From positions 124,001 to 188,000 of the forward strand of contig JAKAGT010000002.1 of the NCBI GenBank assembly GCA_021825585.1: a DNA stretch of 64,000 nucleotides, in the 5' to 3' direction. Below the pieces are notes generated by a model. It saw nothing but the letters and a program-made list of their open reading frames with translations. It had not been told where the DNA came from and searched no databases. The first letter of the stretch is position 1, and each line of letters begins with the position of its first letter. The position numbers and the translations under genes were made by a program. Source of the stretch: Bacteroidota bacterium (GTDB lineage: Bacteria > Bacteroidota > Ignavibacteria > Kryptoniales > JAKASW01). Below are positions 1,028 to 58,034 of this stretch, one piece after another.

Positions 1028-3226
1028 TTACTTGTATAGGTCTGAGAGCGCAATCGCGTAAGCTCCCGCGCCGAACCCAACCATCGGTACCGCACCGTCG
1101 TAGTAAGATGTTTTCGCGTTGTAAAGTTCGGGAATCAAATTGAAGTTAAAGGCTGCCTGATCTGTCACCCAGTTAATCAACCTAAGGGCGCCTTTGCGAT
1201 CGCCGTACCTGCACATGGCAGAAGCGACACGCAAATCAAGAAGAATCCATTCGGACGTTTCGTACCAGTCGCCTTGATTGATCCGCGAGAATCCATGTAT
1301 TCCACCTGCTACACCTAACATCCGGCTGTATTCCTGCAGCTGCGACTGGAAAAGAGCCGTATCAGGAAAAAGTCCAAAACCAAACGCCTCAAAGGTTCCG
1401 CCGTCAAAGTAGTCGTGTTTGTTTGAATCAACCGCGGCCACATCTCCCTTGATGAATTTATCATCGACAACCAGGTTCGTCCGAACGCCGTCGAGAAGTC
1501 TCTCAAAACCTCTGCGGTATTTCTCCGGATCACCAATACCCAACCGCGAAGACAGTTTGGCGAAATCCCGTAGGCCGGCAGCGCAGGCGATCGAAGTGTA
1601 TGCGAACTGTTTCCCCGGAAGGTGCCTCTCCCATGGTCCAGAATCCCTGCGTATGACATTGTTTGTGTCGATACAGTGCATAACGACATCCGCGACCTTC
1701 GTCGCAAGCTCATCATAATATTTCTTGAAGAACGCGGTATCGCCGCTGCGCTGTACGTAATCGCACAATGCTATTAAAGAAAGTCCGAAACCGTCCAGCT
1801 CAATGTTTGGACCATCTTGGTTATAATCGGACTCTTCCGTCCCTTTTCCAAAGTATCGGCACACGGAAATCTGGTACGGCATACCGACACCATAATCTTT
1901 GCCGTCAGTATACACGTAGTGGACGTAATGGCTGGACTCCGCATTGAGCATGAATGAAAGTGCATGCCGTGCTTCGTCAAACAGACCCAATCTGTTCAAT
2001 CCAAGGATTGAATAGCAACCGTCCCTAACCCATGCGATGTTCCATCCGCCTGGAGGAAGCGACGCCATAATTTGCCCGTGCGACTTGGGAAAAGGCTCTT
2101 GAGGCGGCACCTGTGCCATCTTCAATACTGAGATGGACTGCTCCAGAAGAGAACGCTGCTTCTCAGAAAGGCCTTTCGGTATCTTCGATCTTGCGAAAAC
2201 GTTCTCCATAAATTTGACCTCATCATCCAGCAAACGGCCATCGTGCGCAATCAGCCGGTCCTTCGCTGCCGTGACAATATCACGGTTGGTTTGAAGCGAA
2301 TCGACAAAACTGAACATGAAATATTTCTCCATGCCATCTTTCGCCCGGTCAAAGGATACTGAGTCGACCAACACTTCAGCACTCTGTTTTTCGTACGTGA
2401 TTGAAGATCTTGCGACTTCTGCCCGCCGACCCGACATAACTATATAGAATACTTTCTCTTCGGTCGTAAAAGGCGCAAAACAGTCAATCTCCATCCCGGG
2501 ATACTTGACGCCGATGACGTGAGTGTTGTCCTTATAGAAAGTCTTGATTGGCTGTGATTTCGTCGAGACAACGATCCTTCGAAGAAATGGCTTCACAAAG
2601 TTAGCGGAGTCGTAAGCCTGAAAAATGTCCGGCGGCACTTCCTCGATCTCAGCACGCTGCTCATTGTACACCGCGGCAATCAGGCCATTTGATGTCACGA
2701 GCTGGCAGAATGATTTCTTGGGTCCTGGCGGCGGATTGAATTGCCGCACAAAATCCCGATGGTCGTAGATTCCAATTGGACCGTACACAATGCCGCCCGG
2801 TCCCATCATGTTGTAAACTCGCACCGCGAGGACATTGTCTCTTCTAAGCAATTTAGTCGGACACTTGTAGATGCGATCCTTTGTGTATGCCGTTTCCGAA
2901 TCGGGTGGAAATTTGCCCATTCCCCCGATAAACACACCGTTCAAATATGTTTTGTCAGCATCATCGATTTTACCAAGGACCATGTATACGCTATCCCCTG
3001 ACAGAGGCTTATCAATCTTGAAATGTACACGATACCATGCGACACCAAGGTAATACCACCATGAGGGAACGTCGATACGTGTCCAGGTGCTGTCAACGAA
3101 TTTTGGGTCGGCATATACCGAACTGTCGGCAGTTACAAACTGCCATCGTTCCGGTAGGAGTATCGTCTGACCAATGGAAGAGGACGTGAGGAAAAGTAAT
3201 AAAAACAAATATCGGATGGATCTCAC
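1028..3226 (-). CDS. Exported GH15-like (alpha/alpha)6 glycoside hydrolase with N-terminal jelly-roll
   Basis: 732 residues starting with GTG and a signal peptide (LFLLLFLTSSSIGQ). Residues about 25-160 resemble the GH2-type sugar-binding jelly roll (YRVHFKID, YLNGVFIGG, NVLAVRVYN). The C-terminal half is a six-hairpin barrel with glucoamylase-like landmarks: GGWNIAWVRDGCYSILGL near 398 and DSGPWERHLPGKQFAYTS near 530. By family it should release monosaccharides from non-reducing ends in the periplasm or at the surface; specificity is unknown and GH15 is the nearest family I can name. It sits between the copy A beta-helix gene and GH94 in the LacI-headed operon. No strong ribosome site precedes the GTG, but the signal peptide begins there, so the start is likely. 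Confidence 0.72.
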   Translation of the reverse strand: MRSIRYLFLLLFLTSSSIGQTILLPERWQFVTADSSVYADPKFVDSTWTRIDVPSWWYYLGVAWYRVHFKIDKPLSGDSVYMVLGKIDDADKTYLNGVFIGGMGKFPPDSETAYTKDRIYKCPTKLLRRDNVLAVRVYNMMGPGGIVYGPIGIYDHRDFVRQFNPPPGPKKSFCQLVTSNGLIAAVYNEQRAEIEEVPPDIFQAYDSANFVKPFLRRIVVSTKSQPIKTFYKDNTHVIGVKYPGMEIDCFAPFTTEEKVFYIVMSGRRAEVARSSITYEKQSAEVLVDSVSFDRAKDGMEKYFMFSFVDSLQTNRDIVTAAKDRLIAHDGRLLDDEVKFMENVFARSKIPKGLSEKQRSLLEQSISVLKMAQVPPQEPFPKSHGQIMASLPPGGWNIAWVRDGCYSILGLNRLGLFDEARHALSFMLNAESSHYVHYVYTDGKDYGVGMPYQISVCRYFGKGTEESDYNQDGPNIELDGFGLSLIALCDYVQRSGDTAFFKKYYDELATKVADVVMHCIDTNNVIRRDSGPWERHLPGKQFAYTSIACAAGLRDFAKLSSRLGIGDPEKYRRGFERLLDGVRTNLVVDDKFIKGDVAAVDSNKHDYFDGGTFEAFGFGLFPDTALFQSQLQEYSRMLGVAGGIHGFSRINQGDWYETSEWILLDLRVASAMCRYGDRKGALRLINWVTDQAAFNFNLIPELYNAKTSYYDGAVPMVGFGAGAYAIALSDLYK

Positions 3227-3433: not shown

Positions 3434-5137
3434 TTACTTAAGCAAAAGCATTTTTCTCGTCAATAAGTTCGAACCTTCGTGCAGCGAATAGAAATAAACA
3501 CCGCTTGCATACTTGTCCATGTTGACATTGTAGGTGTATGTTCCAGCGGGTTTGTAGCCCTGGTCAACCACATCAACCAACTGTCCGAGGACATTGTAAA
3601 TCGTAAGGCTCATGATCCCCGGCCTGACAAGGCTTACTTTGATTTCAGTCGAAGGGTTGAATGGGTTCGGGTAGTTCTGACTCAGGCTGAACTGAGTGGG
3701 AATGTCGTTCGGAACCTGCTTAACCGCAAGATAGGTAAGGTACCAATTCAAATCGCCGAGCGGCTTCCCGTCGGTGCCCATAGTCTGTAGAGAAGCGTTT
3801 GTATAAGCAAAATTCTCCGGCACCGGATAGCCTTGCGTCTGTGCCCAGTTCTTCGCAACCGGCCCGAACACGTTTGCGGGATTGGTTATGAGCTGCCGCC
3901 AGAGAGGAGAAGTGGAAACCGATCCGTTCCAGCGTGCCACGGTAAACGAGTCCAGGCTGGAAATCATAGGATTGATGATAGAGGCCGAAAAACCCGGATC
4001 TGCATTGACGTTACCTGATTCACTCAAGCCAGGCCAGGCTGTTTTGTTCGAAAACATCGCTTGTGTTTGACTGTTCATCCAAGTGGGTGGAACGATCTTA
4101 TTCTTGGCGGTGTCATTCATTGCTGCGATGGTGGAATCAATTCCTTTTGGCCAGAAATAGGCGTTGTTCTTTACAACGATGTTTCTACCCGCCTCAGTTA
4201 GGTTGTACGGTGGTAAGGCAAACTGGAAGAGGGAGTCAAGTGATATTACCGATGGAGATTCATTTCCCAGCCCGCCGTACTTAATAGAAGCCGAATCCAG
4301 ACCCCCTGCGTAGGTGGCATAGAATATGTTGTTCGAAATGAGTGCCGTGTCAACCTGATATATGCGGAAAGGCCACCAGGCACATCCCACCATCGTGTTG
4401 TGATCAAATTTGAAATATCCAAGATTATCATTGCCCCATATCCCGATCCCGATGCCGAAGTAAGTGTTGTTGGTGAGTACCAGAGTGTCAGCAGCTTCGG
4501 CAAATATAACAGTGGGCTGCCAGAAGGCTCGATCCTGTAAATTTCGGAATTCGGTATTCGTAATATAAAAGCTGTTACTATCACCGCCGTAACTAATTAT
4601 GGCATCGGATTCCTTGGTGAATTCGTCGAACACGCAGTGATTAATTCGCAGCCACGAATGCACTGGAGTTCCGTCAAATAATCTGTTGTTTCCCGAACTT
4701 ATCAATCCGTCGGTGCGCTTGCCCAAGAAGTAGAGATTATCGACGCTAATGTTCCCCGTCCTGCATTCGGTGAAGGGAGCGGGCGTAGAGTTGTCTGAAA
4801 GGATAAACGGTTCAATCACCGGGGGCATACCGGTATTGGGATTGTCCTTTCCTATTATAGTGAGGGTCACACCGTTGAAATTGTTGAGCATGTTAATCGT
4901 AGCGGTAAAGAAATATGTCGTGTCTTTGCTTCCGGTCTGCTGCAGTACGTACACCCTGTTGGGATCCTTCCGGGCTCCTGTTGCGGTGGTATCCCCTGCA
5001 ATGACGTTGTTGATATTTCCCGGCGGCATCGCGGACACATAAAGAGTGTCGGATGACGCTTGGGCGAACGACGAGCTCGGCACTAAGTACAGTGTCGAAA
5101 TCGTGGTCAAAAACAATATGGTGAGCACTTTTTTCAT
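3434..5137 (-). CDS. T9SS-secreted right-handed beta-helix protein, copy A
   Basis: 567 residues from the ATG at 5137, preceded by GAGGAGAGG; an open frame runs 44 codons further upstream but has no ribosome site and no signal. MKKVLTILFLTTISTLYLV is a signal peptide. The middle has beta-helix turns (NNTYFGIGIG, HNTMVGC, NNIFYATY, NNAYFWP), as in pectate-lyase-like and surface-binding proteins; no catalytic residues can be assigned. The last ~80 residues are a T9SS type A sorting domain (LSQNYPNPFNPSTEIKV ... ASGVYFYSLHEG ... RKMLLLK), so the protein should be exported across the outer membrane and retained at the surface or released. It lies 201 bases after TBDR copy A, where SusD would be expected. 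Residues up to about the sorting domain are identical to copy B; the sorting domain itself differs. Confidence 0.85.
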   Translation of the reverse strand: MKKVLTILFLTTISTLYLVPSSSFAQASSDTLYVSAMPPGNINNVIAGDTTATGARKDPNRVYVLQQTGSKDTTYFFTATINMLNNFNGVTLTIIGKDNPNTGMPPVIEPFILSDNSTPAPFTECRTGNISVDNLYFLGKRTDGLISSGNNRLFDGTPVHSWLRINHCVFDEFTKESDAIISYGGDSNSFYITNTEFRNLQDRAFWQPTVIFAEAADTLVLTNNTYFGIGIGIWGNDNLGYFKFDHNTMVGCAWWPFRIYQVDTALISNNIFYATYAGGLDSASIKYGGLGNESPSVISLDSLFQFALPPYNLTEAGRNIVVKNNAYFWPKGIDSTIAAMNDTAKNKIVPPTWMNSQTQAMFSNKTAWPGLSESGNVNADPGFSASIINPMISSLDSFTVARWNGSVSTSPLWRQLITNPANVFGPVAKNWAQTQGYPVPENFAYTNASLQTMGTDGKPLGDLNWYLTYLAVKQVPNDIPTQFSLSQNYPNPFNPSTEIKVSLVRPGIMSLTIYNVLGQLVDVVDQGYKPAGTYTYNVNMDKYASGVYFYSLHEGSNLLTRKMLLLK

Positions 5138-7936
5138 AATGCCTCTCCTCTTTTGGTTTTTTGGCGTCTGACAGAATCTCTGCCAGACATCATTCTTTGT
5201 TTGAAAATACTCCCACTTTCCCCCATTGAGTTCTCTCAATGTTTTACTCGCCAGAAAAATAGTCCGCATATAATTATACTTTTAGCCTTTTAAACCATCC
5301 CTTAACGAATCGAATAAACTTCCTGTTTGTCATGTGCGCTATTGTAAACTCCATCTAAGTCCTAATTGTGCCACCGTGCCATAAACACTTTCGGACGTAG
5401 GGAAACCGTTTCCTTGGACCACATAAGTATCACTTGCATCGTTGAGATTAACCAGGTTCAGGTAAACAACAAGACCGGGCAAAGGAAGATTTTGTTTCGC
5501 CGTCAAGTCCCAACGCAGATATGAAAGTTTCGCGGGACGACGTTCCGGGTATTGATCCGTTCCGGTCGATACGTTCGCCTGGTATATCATGGACACAAGG
5601 ACAGAGAACCCCTGGTAGTCATACCCGACTGATAGATTAACGATGTTATCGGGCTGGTATATCAGGCGGTCGGTATAGAACGTGTCGACGTGAGTCGGTA
5701 TGTAAGTGGGATAAACTCCGGGCTTGGTCATCGTATACGGATATTTTGCACTCGAGAATATATGTGTGTAATTGATGTTGAACACCAATCCGCTCAACAA
5801 TCCGGGCAAATACCAGAAGTGCGTTTGCCAATCGAGCGATGCACCATAGTCGTCAACCCGATTGGGGTTGTTCAAAAAGGTGTTCAATTGAAAGCCTGCC
5901 GTGGTGGGAGGTAGCCCGGGATACTTAGACGGATCAGAGATGAACCTGCTCTGTGCAAATATCATATCATCGATTCTCTTCAGGAATCCGCCGACGGTAA
6001 GGAGTCCGATAGTGTTATCATAGAACGAGAGCTGTAAGTTATAATTCCTCGAATGAGCTGGTTGTAATGCGAAGTTGTTCCAGGTAACTGAGGCATTTGC
6101 CGGGAAGATGTCGATTGTCGGTATGATGCTGGTAAAGTCCGGGTAGGATAGTGTATTGGTATAGGACAATCGTGCGATGAACCATGAGAGCGGCTTGTAC
6201 ATCAAGCTCACGTCAGGCAGTAAATAACCGTGATACTGGGCAATTGTGGTATCCTGATGAGGATAGACACTCGGATAATAAATAATCTGGTTTGCGTTAG
6301 AAATCCTTGCGGTCCGGTATGATGTTGCGAGGCCCTGGTATCGAGCTCCACCTATAAGTGTTATCTGGGGTCCCATATTAACTGTCGCCATTGCATAAGC
6401 AGCACTTTCATCCTCATTTCCGGAATAATTGTTCGCAATGTTGCCGTAAGGGTCAGGAGAGAAACCCCATGACTGCCAGCCGGCTTTAGAGGCTCCCTGA
6501 GAGACGAAATTCACTATTTGTGACAGGAAGTTGAGATTTGGCGCTGGCCCCATCTTGTAGTTGCCATTAAGGAAATTCCCGTAGCTGAAATTCGGGTCGA
6601 TGAAGACAGTTAAGGGAAGTGTTGCGCTCTTTGTCGGATCGAGGTTGTAGGGTGGCTGCTCCATCCATGGATAAGCATGAATGATTGCGCCGTACACGGT
6701 GGTTGAGGCGTCGAAACCTAAGCCGCCGCCCGTCCCGTTGCTGCTATAAGACCGGTGCGTGTAATGATAGCTTCCTCCAAACTTTAGAATCCCTGAGACT
6801 AAATCCGATACACTTATGTTTCTCGTAATATCGATGGACCCCGTAATATTTCTTTGCATTGTGGTACTGTTGCTGGTGTTGATATCCAAGAGCTGCATGA
6901 TTTGCGGGTCAAGTTTGGGCAAAGCGGCCTGCGCAATCAGTTGCGGTGGCAGTGCCCCTGAGACGGTACCCAGGTTTGCAGGGTACTGCTGGAAAGTCAC
7001 CCCCCAGCCTCCGCGAGAAATATTCTCTGAGAGCGAGTGAGAGATCTTCGCATCAAGACCAAATGACAGCACCCTTTGTTTGAAGTCAAGAAGGTTTGTC
7101 ATGACAACAAGCTGGCCGGGTGAATAAGCTGCTCTGTCGATAATCTGGTTTACCTGAAGGTTGTAATCCTGGCTGATCGTCTGCGTATTCGTATTGCTGC
7201 CGCTGAAGAAGTTCATGAAATCAATCTTACCATCGGGCAGCACGTAATCTATATTGATAGTTCCGTTGTACCTGTGCGTGATACTGGGAAGAAAGCTGAG
7301 GGTGAGATCGGTAAGGAGCAAAGGATTATTCGCGCCGGGATTCTTTGACGTGAGAATATAGCTTGCCCCCAACCCATCGCTTGACAAGTTTTCCCGATCG
7401 ACAACGGCTTGCGCGAGAATTCCAAGCCGCTTGTCCAAAAACCTGTCGCCGACAGTGGCGGAAAAGTTGTAATCGCCGAATTGACTTCGGAGACCTTCGT
7501 ATCCTCCCTGTGAGGAAAGTTCAATCTCAGGTGCGCCTGAAGATGTCTGTCTTGCTTCCCTGATTTGGAAGTTCACGACTCCGCCCAGAACAGCCGCGTT
7601 CATATCAGGGGTCACGGTCTTGTATACCTCGATCCCACTAAGCATGTTCGAAGAAATCATGCTCATGTTCACCGCCCGGTCACTACTGCTGGTCGGGGCC
7701 ATTTCTACTCCATCAATCTCAACCCGGTTGTACTTAGGTTGGAGTCCATCGATGGCGACCTCGTATCCCTGCCCTCCCTGCCTGAGCAGGTAAACGCCGG
7801 GAAGTCTGCCGACAGACTCGGCAGCGTTGGCGTCCGGCAGCTGCCGAATTTTAGCGGCAGACACAACACTTACTATCTTGTTTGAGGACAGCTGCTGGTT
7901 TATAGCTGCGTTTTGCCCGCTCGCTTGAACTGTGAC
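3739..7936. repeat. 4.2-kb direct repeat, copy A
   Basis: Nearly identical to 43177-47374, at a constant offset of 39438 and with no length change. Differences noticed are at 3767, 7769, 7868, 7869 and 7871 only, so the interior of about 4 kb looks identical, including the non-coding gap 5138-5338. It covers TBDR residues from about 157 to the end and the beta-helix protein without its sorting domain. Beyond both ends the sequence is still homologous but strongly diverged. Confidence 0.95.
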
Positions 7937-8407
7937 GACTACTTCCTTCCCACGCAAGCCGACCGCCTGCAGCTTTACGTTTTCAACAAGCTTCGCTCCT
8001 CCACTTATTTTTATGTTAATATCTCGTGTTGTGTACCCGATGTACATCACTCGCAAGGTATAGGTTCCAGGCGGTATGGCTTCAATCGTGTACTCCCCGT
8101 CCAGATTTGTCGGCACCCCAAGACTTGTTCCCTTCAACACCACGGTTGCACCAATCAGTGGGTCATTTGTCTCTGCGTCAGAGACCCTGCCTGAAATTTC
8201 GGCATTACCCTGCTGAGTTTTCTCTTTCTCTTGCGGACCGGCCCAATCAGAGGCAATTTCGTTCTGCTCGTACAGATAAGGTCTCAATTGTGACTGAGCA
8301 TTCGGATGGTGGGCAAATCCGTTTCTCTGATTCAGAGGCCAAGCTAAAACAACGGTTGGGATCAAAAATGTCAGACACACCAAGCATAACAATGTATAGT
8401 CTTTCAT
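5339..8407 (-). CDS. TonB-dependent receptor, copy A (no STN domain)
   Basis: 1022 residues from the ATG at 8407 (MKDYTLLCLVCLTFLIPTVV signal peptide); the frame opens further upstream but those residues are charged and lack a ribosome site. Domains in order: a signal peptide and short linker, a CarboxypepD-reg-like beta-sandwich at about 83-160 (GATVVLKGTSLG, GEYTIEAIPPGTY), a plug (LPDANAAESVGRLPGVYLLR, YNRVEIDGVEMAPT, GGVVNFQIREA) and a 22-strand-type barrel ending LGLRWSLQ. The plug resembles the Xanthomonas-Caulobacter type of TBDR more than SusC. It should import an oligosaccharide or similar ligand across the outer membrane using TonB. It follows the LacI gene by 100 bases and precedes the beta-helix gene. 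From about residue 157 it is identical to copy B apart from an S/N change near residue 180. Unlike copy B it has no STN signalling domain. Confidence 0.92.
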   Translation of the reverse strand: MKDYTLLCLVCLTFLIPTVVLAWPLNQRNGFAHHPNAQSQLRPYLYEQNEIASDWAGPQEKEKTQQGNAEISGRVSDAETNDPLIGATVVLKGTSLGVPTNLDGEYTIEAIPPGTYTLRVMYIGYTTRDINIKISGGAKLVENVKLQAVGLRGKEVVVTVQASGQNAAINQQLSSNKIVSVVSAAKIRQLPDANAAESVGRLPGVYLLRQGGQGYEVAIDGLQPKYNRVEIDGVEMAPTSSSDRAVNMSMISSNMLSGIEVYKTVTPDMNAAVLGGVVNFQIREARQTSSGAPEIELSSQGGYEGLRSQFGDYNFSATVGDRFLDKRLGILAQAVVDRENLSSDGLGASYILTSKNPGANNPLLLTDLTLSFLPSITHRYNGTINIDYVLPDGKIDFMNFFSGSNTNTQTISQDYNLQVNQIIDRAAYSPGQLVVMTNLLDFKQRVLSFGLDAKISHSLSENISRGGWGVTFQQYPANLGTVSGALPPQLIAQAALPKLDPQIMQLLDINTSNSTTMQRNITGSIDITRNISVSDLVSGILKFGGSYHYTHRSYSSNGTGGGLGFDASTTVYGAIIHAYPWMEQPPYNLDPTKSATLPLTVFIDPNFSYGNFLNGNYKMGPAPNLNFLSQIVNFVSQGASKAGWQSWGFSPDPYGNIANNYSGNEDESAAYAMATVNMGPQITLIGGARYQGLATSYRTARISNANQIIYYPSVYPHQDTTIAQYHGYLLPDVSLMYKPLSWFIARLSYTNTLSYPDFTSIIPTIDIFPANASVTWNNFALQPAHSRNYNLQLSFYDNTIGLLTVGGFLKRIDDMIFAQSRFISDPSKYPGLPPTTAGFQLNTFLNNPNRVDDYGASLDWQTHFWYLPGLLSGLVFNINYTHIFSSAKYPYTMTKPGVYPTYIPTHVDTFYTDRLIYQPDNIVNLSVGYDYQGFSVLVSMIYQANVSTGTDQYPERRPAKLSYLRWDLTAKQNLPLPGLVVYLNLVNLNDASDTYVVQGNGFPTSESVYGTVAQLGLRWSLQ

Positions 8408-8507
8408 GGCTGCTCTTCTCGATTTCCCGTGTTTGATTATCGACATGCCACATTCACCACATGAACCTGAGTCCCTGTGACGTCCTAAGATGTCCACTGC
8501 ATCAAAG

Positions 8508-9548
8508 TCATGCCATCTCACTGACTTCCTCATCAGACTTCAATGAACATCCGCACGATTCTCTTATAACAATTGAAGTTGTCAAAACCTTTTTTATTCC
8601 TTTCATGCCATCCATGGCTTTTACTCCGTCTAGCAAATGTTTTACCGCGATAGTGCCCATTTCGTATATAGGCACGTGAACAGAAGTTAGAGCCGGTAAA
8701 ACATATCGCGCAGATGGAACATCGTCAAAACCGGCGAGTGCAATTTCACCGGGAACAATTATATCTTTCTCGTGCATCGCCCTCAGAGCACCGAGCGCCA
8801 TCGAATCATTCGCGCAGAATAATGCCGAGGGTTTTGTTTTTAGTTTCAAAATCTTCATCATCCCTTCGTAGCCAGATTCTTCGGTAAAATTGCCCCCTAT
8901 CTCGAGTTCCGGGATCCGGTGGATCCGGTTCTTTTTCAAGGCTTGCAGATAGCCGTTGAATCTTTCGCGCGCATCGAAGTTGCTCTCTTCTCCTTTAATG
9001 ATTGCTATTCTGTCGTATCCATGTCCGATGAGATGCTCTACCATCTGGTACGCGCCGTTAAAGTTATCTATCGAGACTGACACGAATTTAGCACCGTTCG
9101 TGTAGGAGTTGACGAAGACCAGGTTAGAGAGAAGGGACAGCCGTTTCAACACACCTTCCGCGCTGATATGCGGCGACATGATGATCAACCCGTCAACGTG
9201 GCCGCCCTGCATCACATTGAGCATTGACTCGATTTCCTTCTTGTTGCTGTGCGTGCTCGACACGATGATATGATAGGAACGTTCGCGGGCCGCCTGATCG
9301 ATTCCGCGTATCAGTTCGGAGAAGAATTCGCTGTGGACGTCCGGTAGAATCACACCGAGAAGATTGGTCTTATGTGTGACCAGCGCACGGCCGATCGCAT
9401 GGGGCATATAATTGAGCTCATCTATCACGGCGGCAACTCTCTGCTTCGTCTCTTCGGAGACAACCGCGCTGCCGTTGAGGACGCGCGACACAGTGGCAAT
9501 TGAGACGTTTGCCCTCTTCGCCACTTCCTTTATCCCGTTTTTGGACAT
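8508..9548 (-). CDS. LacI-family transcriptional regulator
   Basis: 346 residues from the ATG at 9548, where the helix-turn-helix begins (IKEVAKRANVSIATVSRVLNG), followed by the hinge (NYMPHAIGRALVT) and a periplasmic-binding-protein-like effector domain (LLGVILPDVHSEFFSELIRG, GFDDVPSARYVLPALTSVH). An open frame continues 29 codons upstream but crosses the promoter and operator. GGAGG lies 12 bases before the ATG, a rather long spacing. It is the first gene of a run with TBDR copy A, beta-helix A, GH15-like and GH94, and a perfect palindrome typical of this family sits just after its promoter, so it probably represses its own operon until a sugar binds. The ligand is unknown. Confidence 0.93.
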   Translation of the reverse strand: MSKNGIKEVAKRANVSIATVSRVLNGSAVVSEETKQRVAAVIDELNYMPHAIGRALVTHKTNLLGVILPDVHSEFFSELIRGIDQAARERSYHIIVSSTHSNKKEIESMLNVMQGGHVDGLIIMSPHISAEGVLKRLSLLSNLVFVNSYTNGAKFVSVSIDNFNGAYQMVEHLIGHGYDRIAIIKGEESNFDARERFNGYLQALKKNRIHRIPELEIGGNFTEESGYEGMMKILKLKTKPSALFCANDSMALGALRAMHEKDIIVPGEIALAGFDDVPSARYVLPALTSVHVPIYEMGTIAVKHLLDGVKAMDGMKGIKKVLTTSIVIRESCGCSLKSDEEVSEMA

Positions 9549-9576: not shown

Positions 9577-9604
9577 ACGGCAATGTAAACGTTTACATCA
9601 CCGT
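9577..9604. promoter_or_regulatory. LacI-type operator
   Basis: The 16-base core at 9583-9598 (ATGTAAACGTTTACAT) is a perfect palindrome with the central CG usual for LacI-family operators. The symmetry extends to 28 bases with two mismatched pairs. It lies directly downstream of the -10 box of the lacI promoter and 29 bases before the start codon, where a bound repressor would block transcription. Confidence 0.8.
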
Positions 9605-9606
9605 TT

Positions 9607-9635
9607 ATTTTAACTCTTTTCCTTTTTCTTGTCAA
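9607..9635 (-). promoter_or_regulatory. Sigma70-type promoter of the LacI-headed operon
   Basis: On the minus strand a perfect -35 box TTGACA (9635-9630) is followed after exactly 17 bases by TAAAAT (9612-9607). The start of transcription would fall inside the adjacent operator palindrome. Confidence 0.65.
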
Positions 9636-38404: not shown

Positions 38405-38433
38405 TTTTTCCTCCACGGATTTAATACCCGGTC

Positions 38434-41318: not shown

Positions 41319-42668
41319 TTAAGGCCTCGTTCGATGGAAGCCTGCCTTTTGCAGAGCCGTCTGAATGTACGGTATGTTCATGAACTCGTTCCATACTCCA
41401 CCGCTCCTGAAATTTTCCAGCATCAACACCATGTTCCCCTCGTCGATACCAGTATACCTGGTATCATACCAATTCTCTTCAGGGTTGAACGAGTCCGTGA
41501 ATCCATATGGGGTCCATATCTTGTCCGAATACTTATCATACATGTATTTAAGCGTAGGAAGAGCAAGTGTCGGAATGAACGGCAGGGAAGCGGCGACCGC
41601 CGACGGAGCCACGGTCCCGTTGAAGGGCACTCCATAGCCGAGATATCCGTTTTCCCCGTCGCAGGCAGTCCAACCCCATAGAAGAGTGTCGGCATAGTTT
41701 TGCCTTGCCCAGATAAGGCAAAGATGCCGGTTGGCAGTGAGCGCGTTCGCCGCGTTTTGCCAGTAATCGGCGTAGTTGTCTCTCATCCCGTTAAAGTTGA
41801 ACCAGCAAGCCGGAAACTGGTACAGGTACGCTTCCGGAGTCAAGGCACCGCCGGGAGTCAAGAAAGCTCCCGTTCCGTAAGGATTAATGAAATGGTAAGT
41901 ACTTACCCAAGTGTTCCAGCTACTCGCGGGAATCGGGTGAGTCGGGGAGCCCATTGCCAGAAGGTAAACAAGGATATACTCATTATATCCGGTGAACGCG
42001 TTCGAGAATCCGTTCTCAGGAGTCCACGCTCCGGCAATCCCGCCGTCGGGTCGCAGAAACGAATTCCAATCCGCGGCCTCATATATTTTTCGTGCCAGTG
42101 TGTCGATTTCAGTCCCCTCGAAATGCTCCATGCACTGAAGCATTCCGGCAAAGAGTATTCCGGAATCAATTGTCGACACTTCACTGTTTCCGAAGCGCTG
42201 TCCCGTCTCACTATTTATGAAATGATAGAACAAGCCATCGTGACCTTGCACATAAAAGTCATTCGCCTTGGTCGTATCCCTGTAAAAACTATTCAGTATC
42301 AACAACAGACGCTGATACGCTTCCCGATAAGTTATCCACCCTCTTGTATCAGCTATGCATATCGCCGAGAGGGCGAATCCCTCGGTGGCTATACTCACGC
42401 GATTGGGAACAGATGATGAAGCGTCTCCCAATCCAGTGTTGGGATCAACTCCGTTCCAGAAGAATTCGAATGCCGCCTTCTCAATCTTGTCGAGCAATCG
42501 TTTATCGTTAGGGTTCAGAGTATCCCACGTCGTGAAATAGATACTATGGATAGTAACCCCGGAGGGCTGGACAATCTGACAAGACCCAATTCCAAGAGTT
42601 AGCATTGCCAGACAACAGACTGAAATCAAAGCAAGTGAGCTCTTCATTCTCCTCAAAATCCTTTTCAT
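41319..42668 (-). CDS. GH144-like (glycoamylase-domain) lipoprotein, probable endo-beta-glucanase
   Basis: 449 residues. A hydrophobic start ending LGIGSC suggests a lipoprotein. ATG codons at 42668 and 42647 are both possible; GAGG lies just before the second. The protein carries the (alpha/alpha)6 glycoamylase domain: LLDKIEKAAFEFFWNGVDPN, RVSIATEGFALSAICI, FYHFINSETGQRFGNSEVST, TGYNEYILVYLLAMGSP, WGWTACDGENGYLGYG and YTGIDEGNMVLMLEN. Characterised members of this type (GH144, GH162) are endo-beta-1,2-glucanases. It is the first enzyme after the TBDR/beta-helix copy B pair and precedes a GH3, suggesting that this sigma/FecR-controlled unit handles a beta-glucan. The beta-1,2 linkage is an inference. 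Confidence 0.85.
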   Translation of the reverse strand: MKRILRRMKSSLALISVCCLAMLTLGIGSCQIVQPSGVTIHSIYFTTWDTLNPNDKRLLDKIEKAAFEFFWNGVDPNTGLGDASSSVPNRVSIATEGFALSAICIADTRGWITYREAYQRLLLILNSFYRDTTKANDFYVQGHDGLFYHFINSETGQRFGNSEVSTIDSGILFAGMLQCMEHFEGTEIDTLARKIYEAADWNSFLRPDGGIAGAWTPENGFSNAFTGYNEYILVYLLAMGSPTHPIPASSWNTWVSTYHFINPYGTGAFLTPGGALTPEAYLYQFPACWFNFNGMRDNYADYWQNAANALTANRHLCLIWARQNYADTLLWGWTACDGENGYLGYGVPFNGTVAPSAVAASLPFIPTLALPTLKYMYDKYSDKIWTPYGFTDSFNPEENWYDTRYTGIDEGNMVLMLENFRSGGVWNEFMNIPYIQTALQKAGFHRTRP

Positions 42669-42871: not shown

Positions 42872-44575
42872 TTATTTTAAGAGCACCATTTTCCTTGTCA
42901 ACATATGCGAACCTTCGCGCAGCGAATAGAAGTATACACCGCTGGCGTACTTATTCATGTTCACCGTGTAGGTATATTCACCCGCCGGCTTGTATCCGTT
43001 CTGAAGCACATCAACCACTTGACCGAGCACATTGTATACCTTCAGGCTCACGTTGCCCGGCTGTTTCAGACCCACTTTGATTATCGTGGACGGATTGAAG
43101 GGATTGGGGTAGTTCTGACTCAGAGTGAACTTGGTGGGTATCGCGTTGGGCCGCGGTATAACAGCGTTGAGAGACGGGTACCAATTCAAATCGCCGAGCG
43201 GCTTTCCGTCGGTGCCCATAGTCTGTAGAGAAGCGTTTGTATAAGCAAAATTCTCCGGCACCGGATAGCCTTGCGTCTGTGCCCAGTTCTTCGCAACCGG
43301 CCCGAACACGTTTGCGGGATTGGTTATGAGCTGCCGCCAGAGAGGAGAAGTGGAAACCGATCCGTTCCAGCGTGCCACGGTAAACGAGTCCAGGCTGGAA
43401 ATCATAGGATTGATGATAGAGGCCGAAAAACCCGGATCTGCATTGACGTTACCTGATTCACTCAAGCCAGGCCAGGCTGTTTTGTTCGAAAACATCGCTT
43501 GTGTTTGACTGTTCATCCAAGTGGGTGGAACGATCTTATTCTTGGCGGTGTCATTCATTGCTGCGATGGTGGAATCAATTCCTTTTGGCCAGAAATAGGC
43601 GTTGTTCTTTACAACGATGTTTCTACCCGCCTCAGTTAGGTTGTACGGTGGTAAGGCAAACTGGAAGAGGGAGTCAAGTGATATTACCGATGGAGATTCA
43701 TTTCCCAGCCCGCCGTACTTAATAGAAGCCGAATCCAGACCCCCTGCGTAGGTGGCATAGAATATGTTGTTCGAAATGAGTGCCGTGTCAACCTGATATA
43801 TGCGGAAAGGCCACCAGGCACATCCCACCATCGTGTTGTGATCAAATTTGAAATATCCAAGATTATCATTGCCCCATATCCCGATCCCGATGCCGAAGTA
43901 AGTGTTGTTGGTGAGTACCAGAGTGTCAGCAGCTTCGGCAAATATAACAGTGGGCTGCCAGAAGGCTCGATCCTGTAAATTTCGGAATTCGGTATTCGTA
44001 ATATAAAAGCTGTTACTATCACCGCCGTAACTAATTATGGCATCGGATTCCTTGGTGAATTCGTCGAACACGCAGTGATTAATTCGCAGCCACGAATGCA
44101 CTGGAGTTCCGTCAAATAATCTGTTGTTTCCCGAACTTATCAATCCGTCGGTGCGCTTGCCCAAGAAGTAGAGATTATCGACGCTAATGTTCCCCGTCCT
44201 GCATTCGGTGAAGGGAGCGGGCGTAGAGTTGTCTGAAAGGATAAACGGTTCAATCACCGGGGGCATACCGGTATTGGGATTGTCCTTTCCTATTATAGTG
44301 AGGGTCACACCGTTGAAATTGTTGAGCATGTTAATCGTAGCGGTAAAGAAATATGTCGTGTCTTTGCTTCCGGTCTGCTGCAGTACGTACACCCTGTTGG
44401 GATCCTTCCGGGCTCCTGTTGCGGTGGTATCCCCTGCAATGACGTTGTTGATATTTCCCGGCGGCATCGCGGACACATAAAGAGTGTCGGATGACGCTTG
44501 GGCGAACGACGAGCTCGGCACTAAGTACAGTGTCGAAATCGTGGTCAAAAACAATATGGTGAGCACTTTTTTCAT
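42872..44575 (-). CDS. T9SS-secreted right-handed beta-helix protein, copy B
   Basis: 567 residues from the ATG at 44575 (ribosome site GAGGAGAGG). The first ~470 residues are identical to copy A: signal peptide, beta-helix turns and the end TMGTDGKPLGDLNWY. Immediately after this the sequence becomes a related but different T9SS sorting domain (FTLSQNYPNPFNPSTIIKVG ... ASGVYFYSLREGSHML ... RKMVLLK), in which many residues differ from copy A. It should be exported and anchored or released at the cell surface. It follows TBDR copy B and precedes the GH144-like gene, so it probably binds or processes the same glycan. No catalytic motif is visible. Confidence 0.85.
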   Translation of the reverse strand: MKKVLTILFLTTISTLYLVPSSSFAQASSDTLYVSAMPPGNINNVIAGDTTATGARKDPNRVYVLQQTGSKDTTYFFTATINMLNNFNGVTLTIIGKDNPNTGMPPVIEPFILSDNSTPAPFTECRTGNISVDNLYFLGKRTDGLISSGNNRLFDGTPVHSWLRINHCVFDEFTKESDAIISYGGDSNSFYITNTEFRNLQDRAFWQPTVIFAEAADTLVLTNNTYFGIGIGIWGNDNLGYFKFDHNTMVGCAWWPFRIYQVDTALISNNIFYATYAGGLDSASIKYGGLGNESPSVISLDSLFQFALPPYNLTEAGRNIVVKNNAYFWPKGIDSTIAAMNDTAKNKIVPPTWMNSQTQAMFSNKTAWPGLSESGNVNADPGFSASIINPMISSLDSFTVARWNGSVSTSPLWRQLITNPANVFGPVAKNWAQTQGYPVPENFAYTNASLQTMGTDGKPLGDLNWYPSLNAVIPRPNAIPTKFTLSQNYPNPFNPSTIIKVGLKQPGNVSLKVYNVLGQVVDVLQNGYKPAGEYTYTVNMNKYASGVYFYSLREGSHMLTRKMVLLK

Positions 44576-47374
44576 AATGCCTCTCCTCTTTTGGTTTTTT
44601 GGCGTCTGACAGAATCTCTGCCAGACATCATTCTTTGTTTGAAAATACTCCCACTTTCCCCCATTGAGTTCTCTCAATGTTTTACTCGCCAGAAAAATAG
44701 TCCGCATATAATTATACTTTTAGCCTTTTAAACCATCCCTTAACGAATCGAATAAACTTCCTGTTTGTCATGTGCGCTATTGTAAACTCCATCTAAGTCC
44801 TAATTGTGCCACCGTGCCATAAACACTTTCGGACGTAGGGAAACCGTTTCCTTGGACCACATAAGTATCACTTGCATCGTTGAGATTAACCAGGTTCAGG
44901 TAAACAACAAGACCGGGCAAAGGAAGATTTTGTTTCGCCGTCAAGTCCCAACGCAGATATGAAAGTTTCGCGGGACGACGTTCCGGGTATTGATCCGTTC
45001 CGGTCGATACGTTCGCCTGGTATATCATGGACACAAGGACAGAGAACCCCTGGTAGTCATACCCGACTGATAGATTAACGATGTTATCGGGCTGGTATAT
45101 CAGGCGGTCGGTATAGAACGTGTCGACGTGAGTCGGTATGTAAGTGGGATAAACTCCGGGCTTGGTCATCGTATACGGATATTTTGCACTCGAGAATATA
45201 TGTGTGTAATTGATGTTGAACACCAATCCGCTCAACAATCCGGGCAAATACCAGAAGTGCGTTTGCCAATCGAGCGATGCACCATAGTCGTCAACCCGAT
45301 TGGGGTTGTTCAAAAAGGTGTTCAATTGAAAGCCTGCCGTGGTGGGAGGTAGCCCGGGATACTTAGACGGATCAGAGATGAACCTGCTCTGTGCAAATAT
45401 CATATCATCGATTCTCTTCAGGAATCCGCCGACGGTAAGGAGTCCGATAGTGTTATCATAGAACGAGAGCTGTAAGTTATAATTCCTCGAATGAGCTGGT
45501 TGTAATGCGAAGTTGTTCCAGGTAACTGAGGCATTTGCCGGGAAGATGTCGATTGTCGGTATGATGCTGGTAAAGTCCGGGTAGGATAGTGTATTGGTAT
45601 AGGACAATCGTGCGATGAACCATGAGAGCGGCTTGTACATCAAGCTCACGTCAGGCAGTAAATAACCGTGATACTGGGCAATTGTGGTATCCTGATGAGG
45701 ATAGACACTCGGATAATAAATAATCTGGTTTGCGTTAGAAATCCTTGCGGTCCGGTATGATGTTGCGAGGCCCTGGTATCGAGCTCCACCTATAAGTGTT
45801 ATCTGGGGTCCCATATTAACTGTCGCCATTGCATAAGCAGCACTTTCATCCTCATTTCCGGAATAATTGTTCGCAATGTTGCCGTAAGGGTCAGGAGAGA
45901 AACCCCATGACTGCCAGCCGGCTTTAGAGGCTCCCTGAGAGACGAAATTCACTATTTGTGACAGGAAGTTGAGATTTGGCGCTGGCCCCATCTTGTAGTT
46001 GCCATTAAGGAAATTCCCGTAGCTGAAATTCGGGTCGATGAAGACAGTTAAGGGAAGTGTTGCGCTCTTTGTCGGATCGAGGTTGTAGGGTGGCTGCTCC
46101 ATCCATGGATAAGCATGAATGATTGCGCCGTACACGGTGGTTGAGGCGTCGAAACCTAAGCCGCCGCCCGTCCCGTTGCTGCTATAAGACCGGTGCGTGT
46201 AATGATAGCTTCCTCCAAACTTTAGAATCCCTGAGACTAAATCCGATACACTTATGTTTCTCGTAATATCGATGGACCCCGTAATATTTCTTTGCATTGT
46301 GGTACTGTTGCTGGTGTTGATATCCAAGAGCTGCATGATTTGCGGGTCAAGTTTGGGCAAAGCGGCCTGCGCAATCAGTTGCGGTGGCAGTGCCCCTGAG
46401 ACGGTACCCAGGTTTGCAGGGTACTGCTGGAAAGTCACCCCCCAGCCTCCGCGAGAAATATTCTCTGAGAGCGAGTGAGAGATCTTCGCATCAAGACCAA
46501 ATGACAGCACCCTTTGTTTGAAGTCAAGAAGGTTTGTCATGACAACAAGCTGGCCGGGTGAATAAGCTGCTCTGTCGATAATCTGGTTTACCTGAAGGTT
46601 GTAATCCTGGCTGATCGTCTGCGTATTCGTATTGCTGCCGCTGAAGAAGTTCATGAAATCAATCTTACCATCGGGCAGCACGTAATCTATATTGATAGTT
46701 CCGTTGTACCTGTGCGTGATACTGGGAAGAAAGCTGAGGGTGAGATCGGTAAGGAGCAAAGGATTATTCGCGCCGGGATTCTTTGACGTGAGAATATAGC
46801 TTGCCCCCAACCCATCGCTTGACAAGTTTTCCCGATCGACAACGGCTTGCGCGAGAATTCCAAGCCGCTTGTCCAAAAACCTGTCGCCGACAGTGGCGGA
46901 AAAGTTGTAATCGCCGAATTGACTTCGGAGACCTTCGTATCCTCCCTGTGAGGAAAGTTCAATCTCAGGTGCGCCTGAAGATGTCTGTCTTGCTTCCCTG
47001 ATTTGGAAGTTCACGACTCCGCCCAGAACAGCCGCGTTCATATCAGGGGTCACGGTCTTGTATACCTCGATCCCACTAAGCATGTTCGAAGAAATCATGC
47101 TCATGTTCACCGCCCGGTCACTACTGCTGGTCGGGGCCATTTCTACTCCATCAATCTCAACCCGGTTGTACTTAGGTTGGAGTCCATCGATGGCGACCTC
47201 GTATCCTTGCCCTCCCTGCCTGAGCAGGTAAACGCCGGGAAGTCTGCCGACAGACTCGGCAGCGTTGGCGTCCGGCAGCTGCCGAATTTTAGCGGCAGAC
47301 ACAACGTTCACTATCTTGTTTGAGGACAGCTGCTGGTTTATAGCTGCGTTTTGCCCGCTCGCTTGAACTGTGAC
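43177..47374. repeat. 4.2-kb direct repeat, copy B
   Basis: Partner of 3739-7936 in the same orientation. Both ends fall inside reading frames: one at the junction to the T9SS sorting domain, the other where the CarboxypepD-reg-like domain passes into the plug of the TBDR. Confidence 0.95.
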
Positions 47375-48067
47375 AACAACACTCTTTCCCTGCACACCAA
47401 CCGAACGCAACTTGATATCCTCGGACAGCTTTTCCTTACTTTGAATTTCAACTTTCACATCCGCTGTCGTATAGCCAACATAGGTTACTCGTATTGTATA
47501 CGAACCTGCAGGCACACCTTGAATTATGTATCTCCCATTCAGATCCGTCGCCGCTCCGAGACTTGTTCCCTTCAGAAGTACGGTTGCCCCCGGTAGCGCC
47601 TCGCCGGTCTCAGCGTCCATTACCTTGCCCGAAATGCTCCCGGTTCCCTTAGCTCCATCCTTCTTGTCTCGTATTACAATATGCTCCCCCTCCATCGGAA
47701 CCCAGCTTAGCTCCGTCCCTGCCAATACACGGTTCATCGCTTCACCCAATGTCAGATCTTTCAAGTCGACATCGATCCTGTTGTCCTTTGGAACCGATCC
47801 GTCGCGGTAGGAGAAATTGACGCTGGTGGCAGACGCAATCTTGTTCAAAGCTTCTCTTAAGGAAACGTTTTTGAATGTCAATGAAAGGCGACGGTTGAGG
47901 TACGCTTGAGGTCGGCTGGGGGTATCGATCTTCGCATTTGTCCAGTTTGCAACAGAAGAGCCTGGCGGCAAATCGCTGGCCAATTGGGCTCTTGAAATTC
48001 CAGCGACAGAGATTACGATCATCATCGTCACAAAAGGCAACACGAAACTACGAACTTTCATCGCCAT
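44777..48067 (-). CDS. TonB-dependent transducer, copy B (with STN domain)
   Basis: 1096 residues from the ATG at 48067 (AGGA 4 bases upstream; a second ATG at 48061 is possible). After the signal peptide comes an STN signalling domain at about 60-135 (RRLSLTFKNVSLREALNKIA, DVDLKDLTLGEAMNRVLAG, LSWVPMEGEHIVI), then a CarboxypepD-reg-like domain (GATVLLKGTSLGAATDLNG), plug and barrel. From about residue 231 to the end it is identical to copy A apart from one S/N difference. The STN domain is what contacts FecR-type anti-sigma factors in the periplasm, and the FecR gene overlaps this start by 20 bases, so ligand binding should switch on the sigma factor encoded just upstream. Confidence 0.93.
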   Translation of the reverse strand: MAMKVRSFVLPFVTMMIVISVAGISRAQLASDLPPGSSVANWTNAKIDTPSRPQAYLNRRLSLTFKNVSLREALNKIASATSVNFSYRDGSVPKDNRIDVDLKDLTLGEAMNRVLAGTELSWVPMEGEHIVIRDKKDGAKGTGSISGKVMDAETGEALPGATVLLKGTSLGAATDLNGRYIIQGVPAGSYTIRVTYVGYTTADVKVEIQSKEKLSEDIKLRSVGVQGKSVVVTVQASGQNAAINQQLSSNKIVNVVSAAKIRQLPDANAAESVGRLPGVYLLRQGGQGYEVAIDGLQPKYNRVEIDGVEMAPTSSSDRAVNMSMISSNMLSGIEVYKTVTPDMNAAVLGGVVNFQIREARQTSSGAPEIELSSQGGYEGLRSQFGDYNFSATVGDRFLDKRLGILAQAVVDRENLSSDGLGASYILTSKNPGANNPLLLTDLTLSFLPSITHRYNGTINIDYVLPDGKIDFMNFFSGSNTNTQTISQDYNLQVNQIIDRAAYSPGQLVVMTNLLDFKQRVLSFGLDAKISHSLSENISRGGWGVTFQQYPANLGTVSGALPPQLIAQAALPKLDPQIMQLLDINTSNSTTMQRNITGSIDITRNISVSDLVSGILKFGGSYHYTHRSYSSNGTGGGLGFDASTTVYGAIIHAYPWMEQPPYNLDPTKSATLPLTVFIDPNFSYGNFLNGNYKMGPAPNLNFLSQIVNFVSQGASKAGWQSWGFSPDPYGNIANNYSGNEDESAAYAMATVNMGPQITLIGGARYQGLATSYRTARISNANQIIYYPSVYPHQDTTIAQYHGYLLPDVSLMYKPLSWFIARLSYTNTLSYPDFTSIIPTIDIFPANASVTWNNFALQPAHSRNYNLQLSFYDNTIGLLTVGGFLKRIDDMIFAQSRFISDPSKYPGLPPTTAGFQLNTFLNNPNRVDDYGASLDWQTHFWYLPGLLSGLVFNINYTHIFSSAKYPYTMTKPGVYPTYIPTHVDTFYTDRLIYQPDNIVNLSVGYDYQGFSVLVSMIYQANVSTGTDQYPERRPAKLSYLRWDLTAKQNLPLPGLVVYLNLVNLNDASDTYVVQGNGFPTSESVYGTVAQLGLRWSLQ

Positions 48068-49217
48068 AACATCCTTTCTTGCCTGGACCGGCATCGGCTC
48101 TTCGGCGGCCCGCCGATATGGTGGTGGCGTGGCGGGATTCCAACCCTGGGCGCTCGGGAATGAAGTAGACTGAATCCCGCGACACTTTATATTTCAGATC
48201 CAGCGAGAGTGCGATCATATCGAGGACTCGCTTAGCAGGATCACGATTGTCAAATGAGGTTGTTAATCTGCTTGACAGTATCGATGTATCGGATACGAAA
48301 CAGTGAATCCCATACGACCTCCATATCTGCCTGATTATTTCGTAGACCGGCTTGTTCTGGAACACATGCTGTCCCTTCATCCACTCAATATCATTCAGAA
48401 CATTCGCGTTAGTTGGGGGGATAAGGACGCTGTTATTTCCTACAATTGAGTACTGGTCTCCGTGAATTATTACCGGCTTCCCTGACCCATTTCGTGGATG
48501 CAGAGAAACCATCCCCTCCACAACAGCAACTCGTGTGGTCTCATCACCTGGCCACGCTCTTACGTCGAACTTTGTACCCACATCTCTAATCGTGCCGTTC
48601 TGAACATGAACGATGAAAGGATGTGCCTTGGAATGAACCACTTCGAAGTAGGCTTCGCCGCTCAGATACACGTTCCGCACGCCGGCCCTGGTCGTGCTGT
48701 ACTTAAGCTCACTGTCCGAGTTGAGGACTACTTTTGTTCCGTCGGCAAATCGCAGCGAAACCTGCTGCCCCGGGTTGGTCGAGGCCTCCTGGATCATAAA
48801 GCTCTCGTTTTGTGCCTCTTCCGCCTTTTGCAAAGCTTGGTTCCTGAAATATATCGCGAAATATAGGAGACCGGCGAATCCGACAAGCGCAGAGACAGAC
48901 TGAAGAACAGCTTTCATGGGAAATCTGGAGACACGCCGGCTGGAGACAATTCGATACAGCTTGAATTCCCTCCCCGTGTCCCGCCTGTCTTCTCGCTCCA
49001 GTTCAGCTATCTTTGCACTGAGCGATCGCAGCGTTTGCGCGGGATCCCATTCTGTCTTCACCTCTGACGAGAGGTCCCAAATCTCCTTAAGTTTGCTGAA
49101 CATCTCCATATTCCTCGGATTCTCGGCTGCCCACTTCTCAACCTGAAGTTTATCCTTTTCCGAGCACCTCGAAGAAAAATAGCGTGTGAGCACTCTCGAA
49201 CTTGGTTTTTTCTTCAT
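48048..49217 (-). CDS. FecR-family anti-sigma factor, partner of TBDR copy B
   Basis: 389 residues from the ATG at 49217; the frame opens further upstream without support. The cytoplasmic N-part (VLTRYFSSRCSEKDKLQVEK, AAENPRNMEMFSKLKEIWD) would bind the sigma factor. One membrane helix follows near 100-120 (LQSVSALVGFAGLLYFAIYF). The periplasmic FecR domain has QQVSLRFADGTKVVLNSDSE, YLSGEAYFEVVH, PFIVHVQNGTIRDVGTKFDV and VAVVEGMVSL, and an STN-like C-terminal domain follows (NKPVYEIIRQIWRSYG). It overlaps the TBDR gene by 20 bases. A GTAGGGGTA motif lies 30 bases upstream. Confidence 0.93.
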   Translation of the reverse strand: MKKKPSSRVLTRYFSSRCSEKDKLQVEKWAAENPRNMEMFSKLKEIWDLSSEVKTEWDPAQTLRSLSAKIAELEREDRRDTGREFKLYRIVSSRRVSRFPMKAVLQSVSALVGFAGLLYFAIYFRNQALQKAEEAQNESFMIQEASTNPGQQVSLRFADGTKVVLNSDSELKYSTTRAGVRNVYLSGEAYFEVVHSKAHPFIVHVQNGTIRDVGTKFDVRAWPGDETTRVAVVEGMVSLHPRNGSGKPVIIHGDQYSIVGNNSVLIPPTNANVLNDIEWMKGQHVFQNKPVYEIIRQIWRSYGIHCFVSDTSILSSRLTTSFDNRDPAKRVLDMIALSLDLKYKVSRDSVYFIPERPGLESRHATTISAGRRRADAGPGKKGCYGDESS

Positions 49218-49246
49218 CTCATCTGTTATACGATTGTTTGAGCTAA

Positions 49247-49255
49247 TACCCCTAC
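49247..49255 (-). promoter_or_regulatory. GTAGGGGTA motif before FecR (copy B locus)
   Basis: GTAGGGGTA on the minus strand, 30 bases before the FecR start. The identical nonamer occurs at 59201-59209 between the other sigma gene and its FecR. A further AGGGGTGAGGGGTAATG lies at 49361-49377. Role unknown; possibly part of an ECF sigma-dependent promoter. Confidence 0.35.
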
Positions 49256-49424
49256 TCCTCGGATGATTTTTTCTTACGGCGGGAATCACCGACCATACCC
49301 CTTTGTTGCCATGCAGTCCCCGGCTGGCCTTCAGCCGCGAAGGGTCGGCAGAATGACGATACATTACCCCTCACCCCTGTCTGTCAACAAGTCTCGATAT
49401 CGACCGGCTTCGCCTTGTAACTCT

Positions 49425-50000
49425 TTATCCGATAAAATCTTTCAGATGTTTTCTCAAAAGTCTAAATGCCCGACCCATATGGTTCTCCACGGTCTTTTCT
49501 GAAATTCCGAGTATTTCGCCGATCTCCGAATAGGTAAGGTACTCCTGTCTACTCAAAGTGAAAACCATCTTACACTTACGTGGGAGACTCTCAATCGCAT
49601 CTCTCAATGCGATAGCAAGGTCATGATTGATCAGTTCTTTCACCGGGTCTGAAGCCGAGTTATCGTCAACTCTGTCCTCTCCCAGCGGTACAAAATCCCT
49701 CGTTCTTCCTTTCAGGTTGTCGTATACCTGGTTCTTTACGGCTTTGAACAAATACGCTTCTATGGATTTCGAGGAATCGAGCCTCTCACGATTAAGCCAA
49801 AGCCTTTCGAACACCGCTTCGACAATGTCTTCAACTTCGTCCCTCGAAGGAATGAATCTATAGGCAAACCTGCAGAGTCCGGCATAGCGTCTCCTGAAGA
49901 GTTCTTTGAACGCGAATTGGTCGCCCGCCCTTATTTTCTCAACCAGCTCCCCATCGGATTCGGAAAACGTTTCAGCCCGTCGAACCCGTAGATTGTACAT
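49425..50000 (-). CDS. ECF sigma factor, FecI-like (controls copy B locus)
   Basis: 191 residues. Sigma region 2 (AFKELFRRRYAGLCRFAYRF, EDIVEAVFERLW) binds the -10 region, and region 4 (ALRDAIESLPRKCKMVFTLS, YSEIGEILGISEKTVENHMG) contains the helix-turn-helix for the -35 region. It is followed by its FecR partner after 207 bases and then by the STN-bearing TBDR, the standard order for cell-surface signalling. It probably drives the TBDR/beta-helix/GH144 transcription unit. Confidence 0.95.
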   Translation of the reverse strand: MYNLRVRRAETFSESDGELVEKIRAGDQFAFKELFRRRYAGLCRFAYRFIPSRDEVEDIVEAVFERLWLNRERLDSSKSIEAYLFKAVKNQVYDNLKGRTRDFVPLGEDRVDDNSASDPVKELINHDLAIALRDAIESLPRKCKMVFTLSRQEYLTYSEIGEILGISEKTVENHMGRAFRLLRKHLKDFIG

Positions 50001-54727: not shown

Positions 54728-54762
54728 GTCTTTAATTCTCCTTGTGCAGTGTTTTGGCATCG

Positions 54763-58032: not shown

Positions 58033-58034
58033 GG

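Follow-up and report, generated by a model that had tools for sequence, protein, structure and literature searches.

TonB-dependent transducers carry an STN-fold signaling domain that binds an anti-sigma factor and is missing from non-signaling receptors (PMC11637429). Among cell-surface signaling systems of this kind are FecA/FecR/FecI, PupB/PupR and FoxA/FoxR. One of the two TonB-dependent transporters (TBDTs) described here, copy B, resembles them in having an STN head on the transporter with adjacent genes for FecR and an ECF sigma factor. It differs from them in its glycan context, in its host, an uncultured member of the Bacteroidota, and in that the same barrel also exists headless under a LacI repressor (copy A). 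The closest functional precedent is artificial. In laboratory chimeras of PupA and PupB (Koster et al. 1994), swapping the N-terminal head kept transport specificity and moved the barrel onto or off the sigma pathway (PMC9249621). In contrast to these chimeras, the rewiring described here is natural and recurrent, a second surface gene is carried along, and one of the wirings is a LacI repressor.

Copy A is similar to LacI-controlled glycan uptake operons, since a LacI gene with a promoter-overlapping operator lies directly upstream of the TBDT operon; unlike in those systems, this LacI precedes unrelated transporters in two relatives, G010 and G003. Both copies share with SusC/SusD pairs the combination of a CarbopepD_reg-bearing TBDT and an adjacent surface-protein gene, but the barrel is TIGR01782-like, and in place of SusD there is a T9SS beta-helix protein. 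In Bacteroides, DNA exchange in SusC/SusD shufflons puts transporter genes under other expression contexts. In contrast, we saw no invertase or inverted repeats, and the pattern points to homologous exchange, both from one fixed locus to another and across species. Every part of the arrangement (a cell-surface-signaling TBDT, a LacI operon, gene conversion) is of a known kind. In our partial coverage of the open-access literature, we found no precedent for TBDT gene conversion or natural rewiring, nor did any paper found there describe rewiring that recurs in nature at fixed cut points, or a single genome holding a matched pair of which one member has STN and the other lacks it.

Two regulatory frames in one window

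The window, meaning the whole stretch of 64,000 nucleotides that was analyzed, lies on contig C39 of a 4.97-Mb genome in 88 contigs (G000) and contains two TBDT loci, 39.4 kb apart and in the same orientation. Copy B (44777..48094, minus strand, likely start 48067) encodes an STN domain, CarbopepD_reg, a plug and a TIGR01782-like barrel. Its STN domain was identified with Pfam (PF07660, residues 92-144, E=1.1e-12). Copy B is directly downstream of genes for a FecR anti-sigma factor (48048..49364, minus strand; PF04773 and FecR_C PF16344) and an ECF sigma factor (49425..50000, minus strand; TIGR02985 above cut-off). The FecR and TBDT open reading frames overlap, and alignment with relatives indicates that FecR probably starts at about 49217. 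Both hallmarks of a TonB-dependent transducer, an STN domain before the plug and barrel and adjacent FecR-type anti-sigma and ECF sigma genes, are thus present in copy B, as the original prediction had it. The barrel is a relative of TIGR01782 (TonB-Xanth-Caul receptors) and not a member by cut-off, as its score across the whole model, 297 bits, is slightly below the curated cut-off of 310. It does not belong to the SusC/RagA family TIGR04056 (58-66 bits against a cut-off of 368), and its neighbor is the T9SS beta-helix protein rather than SusD. Downstream of copy B, all on the minus strand, are a GH144-like enzyme (41319..42668; PF10091; homolog PDB 5gzh, an endo-beta-1,2-glucanase) and two GH3 enzymes (38594-41155 and 36086-38416), the second of which was assigned by similarity to the first and by synteny in relatives. 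A separate SusC/SusD pair with an STN domain and its own sigma/FecR genes is also found 3-12 kb upstream of the B locus (53414-60002), beside a GH18-like gene.

Copy A (5339..8533, minus strand, likely start 8407 or 8446) consists of CarbopepD_reg, plug and barrel, without the STN signaling domain of a transducer. An STN-like domain in its N-terminus was looked for, and it is absent by HMM (no Pfam match), by length, since the ~45 residues between the predicted signal peptide and CarbopepD_reg leave too little space for one, and weakly by structure, as the poor AF2 model (pLDDT 31) has no folded part ahead of CarbopepD_reg. Directly upstream of copy A lies a gene with the LacI HTH (PF00356) and sugar-binding domain (PF13377) of LacI/GalR repressors (8508..9548, minus strand; the open reading frame is listed to 9635, with a likely ATG at 9548). 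A sigma-70-like promoter for lacI-TBDT_A (TTGACA-17-TAAAAT, 11/12; 9607..9635, minus strand) precedes it, and 8 bp past the -10 of this promoter begins the predicted LacI operator, the perfect 16-bp palindrome ATGTAAACGTTTACAT (9583..9598). The palindrome thus precedes lacI and does not stand between the repressor gene and copy A. The original prediction of an STN-less copy behind a LacI-type repressor with an operator was therefore borne out, and the two regulators do differ: LacI for copy A, FecR and an ECF sigma factor for copy B. A GH15-like enzyme (1028..3226, minus strand; PF00723) is encoded downstream of copy A.

The predicted operator is kept in five relatives. The lacI orthologs of G008, G010 and G003 are preceded by operator and promoter in the same arrangement, and both elements recur at two further loci (L043 and L044) before a LacI of 43-44% identity, where the same TBDT/partner pair follows in the opposite gene order. 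In the 4.97-Mb genome the operator is the sole site at ≤1 mismatch, so the LacI of copy A appears to be a local regulator that controls its own expression. The LacI ortholog of G010 and G003 (L147, L148) has this operator too but is followed by another T9SS protein and another TBDT. Judged from these gene neighborhoods, the LacI regulator likewise changes cargo.

A shared tract that covers two genes

The two loci share 4,198 bp (3739..7936 at locus A and 43177..47374 at locus B), of which 4,001 bp form a single exact run (3768-7768 and 43206-47206). Within the plug and barrel there is one amino acid difference, S222 in A and N263 in B, just as predicted. The near-identity therefore stood, but its extent had been set too small: the tract spans the plug and barrel, the intergenic DNA and partner residues 1-510, the latter two of which the original prediction had left out. 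Because the tract also covers the gene for a second, T9SS-exported beta-helix protein, the shared unit is a two-gene cassette. The tract contains five mismatches, all ≤170 bp from an end, as if an older, wider exchange had been followed by a newer, inner one, and the flanks outside it are 60-71% identical between A and B. On the 5′ side, its border lies past the end of CarbopepD_reg but ahead of VVVTVQASGQ, which from its position would be the TonB-box region, while the 3′ border is at GDLNWY, immediately before the linker and T9SS tail. Both borders lie in or beside the most conserved blocks of the family. When the cassette DNA was used as a query, both places matched at 97-100% and all else at ≤79%, and ~585 kb sampled from the window's genome contained no further near-identical repeat of ≥150 bp. 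The identity of A and B is thus not due to chance. The two-copy state is known from one genome assembly.

Each TBDT is followed by a 611-aa partner with a T9SS sorting tail (3434..5269 for A and 42872..44707 for B, both on the minus strand), and the partners are identical over residues 1-510. In the AF2 model of the partner, which has a mean pLDDT of 71, a right-handed parallel beta-helix is seen. PL6 alginate lyases provided the closest fold found with VIA-align, in their later beta-helix domain (7dmk residues 426-747; Z 29.4, rmsd 2.7, 295 residues aligned), a match in fold only. Foldseek alone matched mostly the T9SS tail, no sequence family was matched beyond this tail, and a PDB sequence search with the partner gave no credible match. 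The pair of TBDT and T9SS beta-helix partner is an amplified, syntenic unit with relatives in 12 of the 13 genus genomes and ~16 partner matches in the window's genome, and it is perhaps a non-SusD counterpart of SusC/SusD. The T9SS tail of the B partner (42872-43176) is the odd one out, being 62-77% identical to every relative, whereas the A-partner tail is orthologous to that of G008. A search of the genus for the source of B's divergent tail found nothing closer than ~77% over its length. From these comparisons, T9SS tails seem to be exchanged separately.

Wirings and recombination among relatives

Our comparison covered 13 genomes of the genus, which are fragmented and mostly 90-99% complete, so that single absences are no proof. 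The relatives named here are metagenome-assembled genomes, and the window's genome may be one as well. Orthologs of this barrel are 74-93% identical at the amino acid level. The barrel occurs with sigma/FecR/STN in four genomes (G002, G009, G011 and G004), with LacI and without STN in one (G008), and with both wirings together only in the window's genome (1/13). The flanks follow this division, with A's lacI, head and T9SS tail resembling G008 and B's sigma, FecR, GH144 and GH3 genes resembling G002. The A locus of G008 has GH94 downstream and GH3 upstream. The regulators of G004 come from a different clade: compared with B, its FecR is 29%, its STN 30% and its core 80% identical. Trees that group the FecRs of this barrel were rejected (AU p = 0.0003), as were those that group its sigma factors (AU p = 1.7e-66), which argues against co-inheritance of these regulators with the barrel.

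Pfam detected STN in 10 of 51 family members, and a local STN HMM returned the same ten. FecR is encoded directly upstream in nine of these ten and in none of the STN-less members. The exception, on contig C16 of G002 (L201:3598-6834), is an STN-bearing TBDT without adjacent sigma/FecR and with LacI and fucose-isomerase-like genes upstream; its neighborhood makes it a possible orphan signaling head. On a tree of the core built from 54 paralogs, the presence of STN switches at least six times (7 by parsimony; shuffled mean 9.3), an approximate number since the tree was built on recombining sequence.

Synonymous divergence of the TBDT core is far below that of rpoB. Between G000 and G002/G008/G009, pS was 0.73-0.78 for rpoB, which is nearly saturated, and 0.22-0.28 for the core. 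Among G002, G008 and G009 themselves it was 0.30-0.36 for the core and 0.60 and 0.72 for rpoB (two pairs computed), giving overall ranges of 0.22-0.36 for the core versus 0.60-0.78 for rpoB. For the B locus against G002, pS was 0.22 in the core, 0.42 in sigma/FecR, 0.43 in the partner, 0.47 in the head and 0.61-0.65 in the GH genes. The core is also a mosaic: 7748-7436 is G002_B-like, its 60 informative sites including 8 that are A-like, and 5334-4583 is G008_A-like (79 of 100 informative sites). In all, 179 runs were counted, and none of 5000 shuffles was as low. The low divergence and the mixture of A-type and B-type sequence indicate that the core moves by recombination. Simple one-way conversion, whether from A to B or from B to A, was dropped because the shared core mixes both allele types. 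At locus A, similarity to G008 rises from 71-81% to 91-99% inside lacI at ~8800. This jump in identity between G000 and G008, in the 3′ third of lacI (8500-8800), suggests a recombination end within the repressor gene.

The original prediction placed the border of identity so that it separates the regulatory heads, as it indeed does, and the same junction is repeated in a second barrel lineage. There, an STN-less TBDT of the window's genome (L157; C42:88000-101930) and one with STN and FecR in G009 (L178; C56:13000-26000) are 74-86% identical in CarbopepD_reg, reach 99-100% at the plug start for ~0.6 kb, and remain mostly at 93-100% for 1.7 kb, in contrast to rpoB, which is 77.6% identical between these genomes. 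Two paralogs within the window's genome, L158 (8489-8989) and L159, show a patch of 95-98% at the plug start and are otherwise 82-85% identical. By its sequence this patch is conversion-like and sits at the plug start, as elsewhere.

Proposed working and alternatives

Based on these observations, we think it probable that a portable two-gene import cassette recombines between species and loci and has here been homogenized between two regulatory frames. The cassette, comprising the TBDT plug and barrel and the T9SS beta-helix surface partner, would move by homologous recombination, and exchange would stop at its edges, namely the TonB-box/plug start of the TBDT and, in the partner, the junction ahead of the T9SS tail. 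With recombination ending there, the regulatory head would stay with its locus: STN, FecR and ECF sigma factor in the B frame, a short STN-less N-terminus and LacI/operator in the A frame. The cassettes in the window's genome have been homogenized recently, as seen in their 4,001 bp of exact identity. We predict that copy B would be autoinduced, with ligand at the barrel signaling through STN, FecR and sigma, and that copy A would be derepressed when an imported sugar in the cytoplasm lifts LacI from the operator that starts the lacI-TBDT_A-partner operon. Copy A would import B's ligand yet, having no STN, would be unable to trigger FecR. From the GH144-like and GH3 enzymes beside B, and GH94 and GH3 beside the A locus of G008, the ligand is likely a beta-glucan. 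Since A is followed by a GH15-like enzyme and B by GH144/GH3, the two wirings would couple one importer to different enzymes. Dual control in living cells is plausible.

The original prediction went further and saw a two-input strategy of one cell. Its anatomy of two wirings holds. In the comparative data, however, the wirings are normally alternatives between species, and what is exchanged takes in a second surface protein as well. The border can be accounted for by homologous recombination at conserved blocks, so that designed dual control is not needed. Both copies may nevertheless have been kept by selection as an OR-gate, so that surface sensing and a cytoplasmic sugar could each induce one and the same import specificity. 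Two intact, different control systems on practically identical importers and the different enzyme neighbors (GH144/GH3 for B, GH15-like for A) speak for this, but the arrangement is not conserved, as no congener has both wirings of the barrel, and we regard it only as a tentative reading. The rarity of co-occurrence (1/13 genomes) leaves a conserved OR-gate strategy unsupported and favors a portable cassette that is sometimes doubled. We are similarly doubtful about a combined version, in which a cassette with natural cut points (TonB box/plug start and T9SS tail junction) circulates on signaling and non-signaling heads, and in which matched copies are kept here as an OR-gate while recombination keeps their specificities identical. 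A stronger candidate, with a chance that we would put not far short of even, is neutral merodiploidy: both locus types would have been recently acquired and homogenized by gene conversion, with no selected function and one copy to be lost. This agrees with the single type found in each relative, the horizontal signal in the core, the conversion-like patches among other paralogs of the genome (L158/L159) and borders in or beside the most conserved family blocks, where homologous exchange is easiest. Against it, the two operons appear undamaged (the operator is perfect, and sigma/FecR are intact), and purifying selection acts on the core (dN 0.038, dS 0.27 versus G008) and on the A head, although either observation is compatible with merodiploidy nonetheless.

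Two other explanations concern the origin of the repeat. If the core was duplicated by the assembler, the true copies may differ or only one may exist. A repeat of 4,001 exact bases in one contig is hard for short-read assemblers, and the few mismatches lie at the tract ends only. However, both frames match relatives on both sides (A like G008, B like G002), and ~585 kb of sequence contained neither N runs nor a further repeat of this kind, so we consider an artifact unlikely. The conclusion on rewiring is independent of this question, because each wiring is seen alone in relatives. The reassortment of heads and barrels also resembles the outcome of a shufflon, a site-specific recombination system that would swap barrels between heads. 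This is highly improbable here, as the copies lie 39.4 kb from each other as direct repeats, the window has no inverted repeats of ≥60 bp, no recombinase was found among the window proteins read, and the mosaic core and ragged ends fit homologous recombination.

In terms of the portable cassette, evolution would be repeating the PupA/PupB handwork, setting one barrel on different control heads, repeatedly and at a reproducible junction. The regulatory rewiring of outer-membrane transporters thereby becomes testable in nature, and the matched pair, one barrel with and without STN, allows transport to be separated from signaling. There is also a caution, namely that the regulator adjoining a TBDT and the substrate of that TBDT are not necessarily conserved together.
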